Source of the DNA: a bacterium
Lineage (GTDB): Bacteria > CSSED10-310 > JAJRTK01
Direction of reading: 5' to 3'
Length of the DNA: 5,207 nt
NCBI GenBank assembly: GCA_024278345.1
Contig: JAJRTK010000134.1
Span: 1-5,207 of the forward strand
This document shows, one piece after another, positions 192-5,156 of the stretch. The first letter of the stretch is position 1, and each line of letters starts with the position of its first letter. A model generated the notes under the pieces. It saw only the letters and a program-made list of their open reading frames with translations. It was not told the DNA's origin and made no database searches. The position numbers and the translations under genes are program-made.

Positions 192-399
192 TGGGCCTCG
201 TCCATCGTTTCGGCCACAAAAAGACGACGCAGAGCGTCGTACATAAATGTGGGTCCAGGGAGCTAGCTCCCTGGCGTGGGTCTGGGAGCAGCGCTCCCAG
301 CGGAGGTTCGGAGGCGGAGCCTCCGCGGGGTTCCAGGGCCGGAGGCCCTGGCGCTGTGTCCGGATTTCGCAGCGTGGCCGAAACGATGGACGAGGCCCA
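192..399. repeat. 208-bp multi-hairpin element closed by a 26-bp perfect inverted repeat
   Basis: The left arm (192-217, beginning TGGGCCTCGT and ending TTCGGCCAC) is the exact reverse complement of the right arm (374-399). The 156 bp between them are filled with smaller hairpins: ACGACGC-AGA-GCGTCGT (224-240), ACAT-AA-ATGT (241-250), a 20-bp perfect palindrome (255-274), an 8-bp stem with AGC loop (282-300), a 7-bp stem with GGA loop (309-325), an 8-bp stem with GGA loop (333-351), and CGCTG/CAGCG around 13 nt (352-374, sharing one base with the outer arm). A closed multi-branch fold is therefore possible in either strand as RNA or single-stranded DNA. Near-duplicate flanks (CACTTCGATG at 184-193, CACTCGATG at 398-406) suggest a mobile MITE-like origin. 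In the minus-strand operon transcript it would lie about 125 nt beyond the last stop codon. No U-tract follows, so it is not a classical terminator. Its function is unknown. Confidence 0.85.
251..355 (+). repeat. Tandem array of four hairpin units
   Basis: Four adjacent units of 23-28 bp (251-277, 278-304, 305-327, 328-355) share a layout: a GG(G)TYC lead, a perfect 7-9 bp stem, a tiny loop, and a GCG-containing tail. Stems are CCAGGGAGC/GCTCCCTGG around TA, CTGGGAGC/GCTCCCAG around AGC, CGGAGGC/GCCTCCG around GGA, and CCAGGGCC/GGCCCTGG around GGA. Stem sequence changes between units while pairing is kept, so both arms changed together. Similar short GC-rich hairpins are dispersed in many GC-rich bacterial genomes, but I cannot assign these to a named repeat family. 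Confidence 0.8.
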
Positions 400-523: not shown

Positions 524-1753
524 TTACGAAAAACTAGAACATCGAGTTTCAAGGAGCTGCTTGGCATTCTTTCCCACCACCGGATCGGGGCTTTTTATGA
601 GTTCTTCCAGCACTTGGGAGTAGATCTCCGGGCGGTTGGACGCGGCTGCCTGCCAGCAAAGTTGGAGGATGGCTCTCCGTCGGACAGGAGCCGCCCGGTG
701 GGCCGTGAGCCGCAACAGCGGCTCGATTCGGTCGGCTTCCGGGAGGCAGGGCAGGCAGCGGAGAAGCTCCAGGTAGAGTGCATCAATTTCCGGTCCATGA
801 GAGAACGGGGCCTTGGCTCTTTTCCAAATCCAGGCGGCACCCCGAGCAAGCCGCCGGGAGATCCGGCTCCGGAACCCCCCGGCGCTCCCCGGCGGGGCAA
901 GGGCGTTTTCTCGCGGGTGAGGGCGAGGCTTCCGGGCGCTTGTCTCGAAGGACTCGGCGTCCCGGGCGGCGGATTGGCACCGATGGAGTGCCCGGGCCAC
1001 CCACGGCGGTCTTGGCAGCGTGGAGCAGATCTCGCCGGCCGTCGCCTGGATGAAGGGTGCGACGCTCCGGCGCTCTTCCTCCGGCCGGTTTGCCAGGAGC
1101 TGGAGGATCGCGGCCCGGACCATTGGAGAGCGCTCCAGGCGGAAGGCCTCCACCAGGGCGCGTGGTGGGCAGAGCGCCAGGCCCCTCGACGGCTCGCTCC
1201 CCGAGAGGGCCAGCCGGATCCGTTGGATCACCTGTTCGCCAGACGAGACTTTTTTTCGGGCTTCGCGCCACGCCTCGGCAAACGCCTCGCCCCGCCGGCG
1301 CAGGATCGATCCTTCTTCTTGACCCAATGCCGCGGTCAAATCGCCAGCGACCGGGAGATCGAGAGTAAAGCCCACGACCACAGCCGCCGCCAGAAAATCC
1401 CTGGGCAGTCCCACCTCAGCCTGAGCGGACTCGCCGGTGGCAATTCCTGATCCCGGTTCTCCTCCGTCGCCGGGTTGAGTCTCGTCCTTCCGCGACTCAC
1501 CAGCCTCGATGCCAACTCCATCTCCCAGGGGCCTCTTCCTTTGTCGAAACTTTTGGGCCAACGCTTGGAGATCGGCCTCGAGCCGCGCTTTCCACGGGCC
1601 GCGTTCCTCTTCGGGCAAGGTCCGGTGGAGCCCCAGGAGATAGCGGGTGTGCTCATGGACGAAGTCGTCTCCGGGACACCCGCAGCCCCGGCCGCTGGCC
1701 ACATAGTCGGACAGAAGCCGAAAGACCGACAGCTCTTTGGAAGGCACGGACAA
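524..1753 (-). CDS. Unrecognised helical protein with HEAT-like segments, second gene of the radical SAM operon
   Basis: This 409-residue protein is not one I recognise. Residues 1-72 look helical and contain a short cysteine motif, CGCP, at 24-27. Residues 75-112 form a Gly/Glu/Asp-rich linker. Residues 118-235 are mostly helical, with a HEAT-like stretch at about 204-235 (PMVRAAILQLL). Residues 270-300 are rich in Arg, Pro and Ser. Residues 335-403 look like two HEAT-type helical pairs (APVRRRAILQL, then DPVVGKNAKQLLE). There is no signal peptide or membrane span, so it is probably cytoplasmic. The start is TTG at 1753, two nt after the TGA of the radical SAM gene, pointing to translational coupling. 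An in-frame stop lies just upstream, leaving CTG (1759), TTG (1753) or GTG (1747) as possible starts. HEAT folds usually mediate protein contacts, so a scaffold or partner role for the upstream enzyme is the inference. A run of seven A residues in the coding strand falls at codons for Lys167-Lys168. Confidence 0.85.
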   Translation of the reverse strand: MSVPSKELSVFRLLSDYVASGRGCGCPGDDFVHEHTRYLLGLHRTLPEEERGPWKARLEADLQALAQKFRQRKRPLGDGVGIEAGESRKDETQPGDGGEPGSGIATGESAQAEVGLPRDFLAAAVVVGFTLDLPVAGDLTAALGQEEGSILRRRGEAFAEAWREARKKVSSGEQVIQRIRLALSGSEPSRGLALCPPRALVEAFRLERSPMVRAAILQLLANRPEEERRSVAPFIQATAGEICSTLPRPPWVARALHRCQSAARDAESFETSARKPRPHPRENALAPPGSAGGFRSRISRRLARGAAWIWKRAKAPFSHGPEIDALYLELLRCLPCLPEADRIEPLLRLTAHRAAPVRRRAILQLCWQAAASNRPEIYSQVLEELIKSPDPVVGKNAKQLLETRCSSFS

Positions 1754-1755
1754 AC

Positions 1756-3555
1756 TCAGCTCGCCCCAGGTTCAAGGACAAAGAGATCGACCCAGCTTGG
1801 TTCCGAACCGCGTTGGGAAAACCAGGTTTCGAACTCCTTGACCATATCGAATTCCAGCCGATAGGCCCCAGGCTTTATGGGCGCCGTAAGCCGCATTTTC
1901 ACAAGCTCTCGGTCGTCGGGCTGAAGCTCTTGCACGAGATCGGCGCGACCGAAATCCATGATGAACTCGCCGTTTTCCCGGTAGAGCTTGACCCCAGCCC
2001 GGACGGGGTGGTCCCCCGTGATTGGCCAAGAGTGATTATCGTAGCAACGGAGTTCGAGTTGCGCCGAAAACTCCTGCCCGGGGCTCACTTGTTCCGGGAT
2101 CTCAAGGACCTTCACCAGCGGCGCCGGCCGCACTTCCAGAGGAATCCAGGCCGGCTCGGAGCCCTCCGCCTCGAACCACGCACCCTGTTCCCGGAGCATG
2201 TCCAGCTTCACCTGGTATCGCCCCACTTCCCGAGGCGCCCGAAGGAGCATCTTGATCTCCACGGATTCGCCAGGCGCCACGTTGCGGGATAGCGCCGCCC
2301 GACCTAACTCCTTGAGGAATTGTTTCTCCTTGCCATAGATTTTAGCCCCCACCAGGAGGGTTCCATCCGATGCCTGCCAGGATCGGCCTTCCACTAGATT
2401 TGTCACCCGGAGCAAGATCTGGAATTGATGGCTCATCTTCACCGAAATCGGTGCCTTCAGAACCTCGATTTCCGGCTGTCTTCGGGCTGGCCGTTTCGAG
2501 GTCGGCGCCCACTTCTCGGGGTCCGCGGTGCCCGCGTAATAGGCGGGAGCTTCGATGAGCTCCACGCCAACTTCTCCAGCCAAGCGGTGGGCCGCGGGAA
2601 TTTGGTGCTCGTTGTGGCGAAACACAAGATACTGCCAATAGATCTTGGGCGTGGCACTCCCAAGCTCCTCTTTCACCGACACCAGCATCTGGAGCCGCTT
2701 CAGGAACTCCTGGAAGTCCCCGCGGCGGCGGTACTGGACGTAAACTTTCTGATCAGCCCCATCGGCGCAGGCAACCAGGATGTCCAGCCCCGACTCCACC
2801 AGGTTCCGCGCTTTCTTTTCGTCCAGGAGCAAGAGGTTGGTGGAGATCTTCGTCCGAATCCCGTAGTCCGCCGCCAGCCGGATCATCTGGCAAACCCGCC
2901 GGTTCGCCAGCGGCTCGCCGTACCGGTAGAGCTCCACCTCGAACAAGTAGTCTCCGATCTCGGAGAGGATCCTTTCAAACGTATCGAGGCTCATGACGCC
3001 TGTCGGGTGCGGCAGGGTCTCCGTTCCCACCTGGCAAATGGGGCAACGGAGGTTGCAGATGTTGGCCATGTCGATGGTCGCCTTGAGCGGGTAGGTGCAG
3101 ACCGAGCCCGTGAGCCGCCGGTGGCGAAGATTCGAACGAAGGAAGTTCAGATATTTTTTGATCCGCTTGCTCAGCGGCCTGTGCCGGCTTTTGGGCGACC
3201 GGAACAGAGCGTCGAAGACCGGTCGAAAATCCTCCAGCGGAAGAATCCTGTGGTTCTTCACCGGGCATGCGCGGCAAGGTCCGAAAACTTTTTGCTCGAT
3301 GATCGGCGGCTTGCCGGTCTGCTGGAAGGTTCGAAGGAATCGGCGCGAGGCCTGGTAGTTGGGCGAGTCCAGGACCGGCAGAACCCCGCCGCCGGATACG
3401 TTTCCCGCCGTGACATCACTGACGTTGGCACAGGAACAAGGCTCGACGTCGCCATTCCAACGGATGCTGATCCCGCGCCAAAGGTGGTGGCACGGAGAGT
3501 TGGGCGGATCGGCCTCGAGCCACGTGATCAGTTTTCGCAAGAGTCGTTTCAGCAT
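1756..3555 (-). CDS. Radical SAM protein with N-terminal SPASM-like region and two C-terminal Ig-like domains
   Basis: This 599-residue enzyme has the radical SAM cluster motif CNLRCPIC at Cys167/171/174 (CX3CX2C), which binds the [4Fe-4S] cluster that cleaves S-adenosylmethionine. RYGEP (211-215) and ISTN (237-240) fit later core strands. Residues 22-97 look like a SPASM-type auxiliary cluster region: Cys22-X12-Gly35-X4-Cys40, Cys42, a GN at 51-52, and Cys94-X2-Cys97. That region normally follows the core; here it precedes it, and no matching cysteine cluster is seen after the core. From about 370 to 595 there are two tandem beta-rich Ig-like domains, each ending in a WF...GSEPxW signature (460-470 and 578-588). 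The resemblance is to Ig-like domains attached to bacterial surface-polysaccharide proteins. No signal peptide is apparent, so it is cytoplasmic. The ATG start at 3555 has a GAGAGG ribosome site 6 nt upstream. It is the first gene of a two-gene operon. The class is secure; the substrate is unknown. Confidence 0.93.
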   Translation of the reverse strand: MLKRLLRKLITWLEADPPNSPCHHLWRGISIRWNGDVEPCSCANVSDVTAGNVSGGGVLPVLDSPNYQASRRFLRTFQQTGKPPIIEQKVFGPCRACPVKNHRILPLEDFRPVFDALFRSPKSRHRPLSKRIKKYLNFLRSNLRHRRLTGSVCTYPLKATIDMANICNLRCPICQVGTETLPHPTGVMSLDTFERILSEIGDYLFEVELYRYGEPLANRRVCQMIRLAADYGIRTKISTNLLLLDEKKARNLVESGLDILVACADGADQKVYVQYRRRGDFQEFLKRLQMLVSVKEELGSATPKIYWQYLVFRHNEHQIPAAHRLAGEVGVELIEAPAYYAGTADPEKWAPTSKRPARRQPEIEVLKAPISVKMSHQFQILLRVTNLVEGRSWQASDGTLLVGAKIYGKEKQFLKELGRAALSRNVAPGESVEIKMLLRAPREVGRYQVKLDMLREQGAWFEAEGSEPAWIPLEVRPAPLVKVLEIPEQVSPGQEFSAQLELRCYDNHSWPITGDHPVRAGVKLYRENGEFIMDFGRADLVQELQPDDRELVKMRLTAPIKPGAYRLEFDMVKEFETWFSQRGSEPSWVDLFVLEPGAS

Positions 3556-4556: not shown

Positions 4557-4855
4557 CGGGCGTGAAGTACCTGAACCGCGGACCATCGAGACCTTGGGCG
4601 GCCGTCTTGAGGGCACAGAAAGAGAAAAAAGCCATCGACGCTGATCATGCCCTTGAAGCATCCCACGCCCGGACTTTGGGTGTTGCTCCAGCCTAGGGCA
4701 GTGGATCGAAATCGGCGACAATGGCGAGTAGCGGGAGCGGCTGCGACCGATGGGAGCGGAACGTAAGGCAAAGAAAAGGATTCACTGTGATCGAAGCTCT
4801 CAGCGAAGAGCGGGATGGGATCTTGGGGCTGAGGGGTATCCACGCAAGGCGGGAC
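4557..4855. other. Non-coding spacer after the secreted protein gene
   Basis: No gene with a ribosome site or recognisable product was found. No intrinsic terminator is evident directly after the TAA at 4554-4556. The best pairing is AGGGCA (4610-4615) with TGCCCT (4648-4653) around a 32-nt loop, too loose to call. A run AGAAAAAA lies at 4623-4630. Confidence 0.4.
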
Positions 4856-5038
4856 ATTCCCGGGACTGTGGAATCGCAAGCGTCCGGGCAACGCCTCGCT
4901 ATCGCTCGGCGGGTCACGCTGCGCGTTACCCGAAGGTCGTCCGGGGACTCCGTCCCCGGTCCCCTGGCAGGGCTTCGCCCCGCACCCACCAGGGAGCGCG
5001 CTCATCTTCCCGTTGCAACGAAGGGCAACGGGATCCCA
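4856..5038. repeat. Right-hand hairpin-dense block
   Basis: At least six short hairpins follow one another: ATTCC/GGAAT (4856-4874); CGCC and GGCG arms with internal GC pairs and a four-base loop (4892-4911); CGGGTCACGC with GCGTTACCCG around TGC (4910-4932, one mismatch, two bases shared with the previous stem); CCGGGGAC-TCC-GTCCCCGG (4941-4959); CCCTGG/CCAGGG (4962-4994) enclosing GGGC-TTC-GCCC (4970-4980); and TCCCGTTGC with GCAACGGGA around 8 nt (5008-5033). A 10-bp palindrome, GAGCGCGCTC, lies at 4994-5003. TGGGATC at 4816-4822 could loosely close the block with GATCCCA at 5032-5038. Read on the minus strand, three of the loops are GCA, GGA and GAA flanked by C and G. It may be a set of dispersed repeats, a structured RNA or a single-strand DNA folding site. 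Confidence 0.75.
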
Positions 5039-5156
5039 GCCCACGTTTTTGTACGCTACGCGTTTTCCTTTTTTTTCGGGACCTATCAGATCCGGTTGAC
5101 AAGTCCACGCACGCAAGGAACCCACCGTTCAATTCCGTGAATCCCGTCCGGCCCGC
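5039..5156. other. T-rich spacer before the right-edge palindrome
   Basis: The stretch holds two T-runs, five T at 5046-5050 and eight T at 5069-5076. The first lies 12 nt after the hairpin at 5008-5033, which is too far for a typical intrinsic terminator. No gene is visible. Confidence 0.35.

Follow-up and report, generated by a model that had tools for sequence, protein, structure and literature searches.

Bacterial MITEs such as Correia, RUP, and ERIC are short, noncoding, TIR-bounded elements that are present in high copy number, have target duplications, and are probably moved in trans. REP, REPIN, and BIME sequences are described as many dispersed palindromic repeats (PMC3116915, PMC2817692). 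The protein family DUF6399 (PF19936) is listed in Pfam as a family of unknown function. Here, we analyzed a window of 5,207 nucleotides, contig C53 of a host assembly of 6.06 Mb in 550 contigs, and the feature that it carries at positions 192 to 399. This feature is of a known kind, a MITE, with an unusual interior, and it is a useful lead on DUF6399.

Results

Ends and folding of the feature

A mechanical repeat search of the window re-found the perfect 26-nt inverted repeat (arms at 192 to 217 and 374 to 399, enclosing 156 nt) that a sequence-only reading of this DNA had described. That reading took all 26 bp as the closing stem. The repeat stands, but the end of the element does not coincide with it: the TIRs are 24 bp long (194 to 217 and 374 to 397), and the outer TG/CA pairs are flank, outside the element. 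The closing stem is perfect because of TIR symmetry, and both ends change together between subfamilies. The window copy is 204 bp long, and the commonest subfamily is 201 bp long. Its features are as follows.

184 to 193, unstranded: left target-site duplication CACTTCGATG, imperfect (flank comparison)
194 to 217, + strand: left TIR GGCCTCGTCCATCGTTTCGGCCAC (copy boundaries in the alignment)
224 to 240, + strand: hairpin 1, subfamily specific, then a T-run on the - strand (structure and alignment)
255 to 274, + strand: hairpin 2, CCAGGGAGC-NN-GCTCCCTGG
282 to 300, + strand: hairpin 3, with compensatory changes among copies
309 to 325, + strand: hairpin 4
333 to 351, + strand: hairpin 5, with one compensatory pair (U-A / C-G) between subfamilies
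374 to 397, - strand: right TIR, a perfect inverted copy of 194 to 217
398 to 406, unstranded: right target-site duplication CACTCGATG (flank comparison)

The five hairpins inside the repeat are all perfect, and with the closing stem they form the stable structure set. The nested hairpins of the sequence-only reading were thus borne out; its count of seven stems was not, since the number varies with the strand and the fold model. We found that the + strand folds as RNA at -146.9 kcal/mol, compared with -91.4 ± 4.9 for shuffles (z = -11.5), that the z score for the - strand as RNA is -12.4, and that those for the two strands as DNA are -9.9 and -10.7. The controls were dinucleotide shuffles (n = 200), and 0 of 200 was as low as any real fold. 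By this comparison, which the sequence-only reading had proposed for RNA and single-stranded DNA on both strands, the real sequence is 10 to 12 SD better. Short ORFs in the ORF lists cross the element, and none was taken as a gene.

Next to the feature, a second inverted repeat (399 to 419 and 527 to 547; 21 nt, 95%) runs from the right edge of the MITE to the 3′ end of ORF 524 to 1753. The stretch from 398 to 550 has two weak relatives in the genome, on contigs C511 (72%) and C116 (partial), so the MITE may have inserted at the border of an older one. The ORF at 524 to 1753 (- strand, 409 amino acids) has no Pfam match and adjoins a gene at 1756 to 3555 (- strand) for a radical SAM/SPASM protein that additionally carries an Ig-like (N_BRCA1_IG) domain.

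Copies and target-site duplications

Using positions 185 to 405, we found 479 first-look candidate places in the host genome, of which 40 were scored. The 40 distinct copies aligned as a conserved block with GGCC at its start and GGCC at its end, between unrelated flanks. Subfamilies are distinguished by the TIR (GTCCATCGTTTCGG versus GGTCATGGTACCGG) and by hairpin 1. The TIR of the window subtype has 47 or 56 host sites with up to 3 mismatches, depending on the precise pattern used, and that of the sister subtype has 233, also with up to 3 mismatches; reversed-pattern controls gave 0 sites in the host genome. Copy numbers rest on these pattern counts, and one site may count in both subtype sets, so the roughly 140 element-equivalents obtained at two ends each are an upper figure. 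When at most 2 mismatches are allowed, the hairpin 2 pattern has 297 occurrences in the genome. The window element is one of over a hundred copies in the genome. Many TIR sites are no more than about 140 bp from a contig end, and some of the fragmentation of the host assembly is probably due to these repeats.

The two TIRs pair at 24 of 24 positions in the window copy and at 19 to 24 of 24 among 31 copies. We compared the flanks of 31 distinct elements that are complete and have sequence on both sides. A perfect duplication of 8 bp borders 11 of them, and one of 9 bp borders 5; when flanks were mispaired as a control, 2 of 930 matched. L057 and L063, both among the 11, are flanked by the same sequences and may represent a single locus present in two contigs; this would also account for the two control matches. 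The flanks of the window copy (CACTTCGATG and CACTCGATG) differ by a single-base indel. Judged from its sequence, the feature is a MITE, a nonautonomous DNA transposon of 201 to 204 bp with precise 24-bp TIRs. "MITE-like element" had been one of three candidate identities in the sequence-only reading; the many dispersed copies in the host, a further point that it had raised, agree with that identity, as do the precise TIRs at both ends and the 8- to 9-bp target duplications.

In a wider contig search, the exact TIR was found in one contig, from a Candidatus Schekmanbacteria MAG. A genome of the same phylum (G003) has 81- and 127-bp elements with the TIR type of the window, and the 127-bp element has a perfect duplication, GAGAAAAC. 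At L041 (1298 to 1522) and L039, family 1 ends include additional sequence similar to CCGAGCGACAGCGAGAGCTGCCGAAGGCAC, which may be another inserted repeat.

A second MITE family in the window

The window also holds a copy from a second family.

4834 to 5060, + strand: second-family MITE copy, with left TIR GGGTATCCACGCAAGGCGGGACA at 4834 to 4856 and a hairpin core

This copy is without a right TIR, and its right boundary at 5060 is not fixed. The TIR GGGTATCCACGCAAGGCGGGACA has 413 sites, and 8-bp duplications were read from the alignment at L139 (TCGAGTTC) and L157 (GGCTCCAG). The two window copies share only 9 nt exactly, which does not establish that their cores descend as wholes from one ancestor. 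The family 1 element L064 contains 39 nt that match family 2 exactly, and in L027 a 30-nt stretch that includes hairpin 2 of family 1 is joined to 59 nt of family 2. As read from these single copies, hairpin blocks are exchanged between the two families. At 5080 to 5107, GGGACCTATCAGATCCGGTTGACAAGTCCAC stands where the right TIR of the second-family copy would be. The same sequence is found next to the right end of L053, a first-family copy truncated there, and may be a third repeat or mark a recombination junction.

Conservation of the hairpins

Across the 31 complete copies, 90.3% of cells can pair as in the structure listed above, compared with 30 to 43% when the partners are slid. Hairpin 1 occurs only in some subfamilies, with 30% of cells paired compared with 96 to 99% in the other helices. 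Arm pairing, by which the sequence-only reading had wanted close relatives compared, is kept among the copies. Both partners have changed at ten pairs, of which six lie in the TIR, three in hairpin 3, and one in hairpin 5. This pair count is only modestly above that in shuffles, 27 of 500 of which equal or exceed it; counted by cells, double changes are more numerous than in any shuffle, a figure that related copies inflate. Mean diversity is 0.052 in stems, 0.276 in loops, and 0.199 in linkers, so that stems are about 4 to 5 times lower. Among 40 young copies, the rate of changes seen in a single copy is 2.5 per 1,000 bases for stems, 8.4 for linkers, and 14.7 for loops; the contrast of stems with linkers and loops has P values of 0.003 to 0.008, from small counts (6 versus 18 and 6).

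Because stems vary less than loops and linkers and there are a few compensatory changes, the pairing of the hairpins seems to be maintained. The low variability of the stems could fit selection for propagation, a function at each site, or re-templating of arms with exposed loops. We think that the likeliest reason for the kept pairing is selection among copies for hairpins that aid propagation. The mechanics of mutation alone, with one arm re-templated on the other in replication and no selection, are a serious though less likely alternative: this process would yield perfect arms and compensatory double changes, and hairpin blocks do move between families, but it does not on its own account for the lower overall variability of stems relative to linkers.

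DUF6399 as the candidate transposase

At two contig ends of G003 (C56 and C87), we found a type 1 TIR beside the end of a gene that matches DUF6399 proteins by tblastn and PF19936. In the host, a decayed DUF6399 gene end (C80, 2668 to 2772) is followed by GTGGTCGGTACTATGACCAAGGCC, and the second TIR type also follows a DUF6399 gene on contig C188. On a Thiodictyon plasmid, a DUF6399 gene lies between GGCCTTGATCATAAATCCGGCCAA and GTGGCCGGAACGATGATCAAGGCC, with a perfect 8-bp duplication, GTCCAACC, on each side; in this complete element, the one gene fills the space between matching TIRs. A Crinalium DUF6399 element is bounded by the second TIR type, with an 8-bp duplication, CGTTTTCT, in its flanks. 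In blastn comparisons, the MITEs and the DUF6399 elements share above-chance similarity at the 24-bp ends only. An origin of the MITE by internal deletion of a DUF6399 element was considered and ruled out, as the blastn similarity is at the ends only.

The PF19936 profile matched in 3 of 386 genomes (controls, 0 of 14), and viral contigs and phages gave no DUF6399 matches. By sequence, comparison with solved structures returned chance-level matches only. NCBIfam models did not match a C-terminal DUF6399 fragment; with full DUF6399 proteins, they gave only IS3 and IS630, via the N-terminal HTH and far below the cutoff. Three diverged DUF6399 proteins, the only ones compared, share invariant D147, E148, D201, D221, and E474, within the common motifs D147-E148-T149-F150, S200-D201, D221-L222-F223-H224, and E474-G475-R476-N477. 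These residues are compatible with a DDE enzyme, though not a demonstration of one. None of the papers searched mentions DUF6399 or joins Schekmanbacteria with transposable elements; an IS entry may already exist in ISfinder. At host locus L214, a sister-subtype MITE (1650 to 1898) has CGAAAGCGA on both sides. Its neighbor is a remnant of the N-terminal part of a DUF6399 gene, and a TIR resembling type 1 lies farther upstream.

The shared ends strongly suggest that DUF6399 is the partner, and the MITE is probably moved by enzymes of this family. It is unlikely that a different, undetected transposase moves the MITE and that DUF6399 is an accessory or a coincidence. That explanation would suit the host genome, in which our search for DUF6399 turned up fragments, several of them at contig ends, but not an intact gene, and it would suit a family whose catalytic role is putative. 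Against this, the complete Thiodictyon element holds a single DUF6399 gene with matching TIRs and a perfect duplication, and the link between DUF6399 and TIRs recurs in G003, in the host, and, with the second TIR type, in Crinalium.

Discussion

Taken together, we consider it likely that the feature is a MITE of 201 to 204 bp on which DUF6399 acts in trans and that its hairpins are modules with maintained pairing. The transposase would bind the TIRs, cut the element out or copy it, and insert it at a new site with duplication of 8 to 9 bp. The enzyme would be a DUF6399 (PF19936) protein supplied in trans, as the shared ends suggest, and the hairpin interior, which is not derived from the DUF6399 element, would be a set of modules. 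More tentatively, DUF6399 could be an unrecognized transposase family with two TIR types, with the hairpin array an exchangeable, maintained module that MITEs of both types carry and that aids their propagation.

We think it quite unlikely that the copies serve the host at their sites, as structured RNA or as transcription or mRNA stability elements that were spread by transposition. The very stable RNA fold would suit such a role, as would the lower variability of stems, which holds even when single-copy changes alone are counted, but loops may simply mutate more, and the private counts are small. Only one terminator-like site was found (hairpin 1, with the T-run on the - strand), with 0.6 expected by chance. 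The unrelated flanks of the copies, with no covariance model match at the gathering score in an Rfam scan of the window, also speak against the "structured RNA downstream of the operon" of the sequence-only reading. Its third candidate, a single-strand DNA folding site, here one of an HUH-type element (REP/REPIN or IS200/IS605-like), has a strong single-stranded DNA fold behind it but is highly improbable given the long, symmetric 24-bp TIRs and 8- to 9-bp duplications, as such elements are not known to make a target duplication, and REP/REPIN units are short palindromes that lack long TIRs.

On the preferred reading, a MITE with DUF6399 as its partner, DUF6399 gains a concrete and testable function for which both the element ends and the target duplication have been defined, and the copies are a natural multicopy data set for asking why a MITE keeps a row of hairpins.

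The window element resembles Correia, RUP, and ERIC in being short and noncoding, with TIRs, high copy number, and duplications. It differs in that its interior consists of successive hairpins whose stems vary little, that its TIRs match those of DUF6399 elements, and that two TIR families swap hairpin blocks. The DUF6399 element of the Candidatus Thiodictyon syntrophicum plasmid (NZ_CP020371.1; duplication GTCCAACC) has a type 1 TIR like that of the window MITE, and that of the Crinalium epipsammum plasmid (NC_019737.1; duplication CGTTTTCT) has a type 2 TIR like that of the second family in the window. Unlike the MITEs, both carry a gene of 524 to 558 codons, and only the ends are in common. 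Compared with REP, REPIN, and BIME repeats (PMC3116915, PMC2817692), the window element is likewise dispersed and palindromic, but it is bounded as a whole by 24-bp TIRs with a target duplication.
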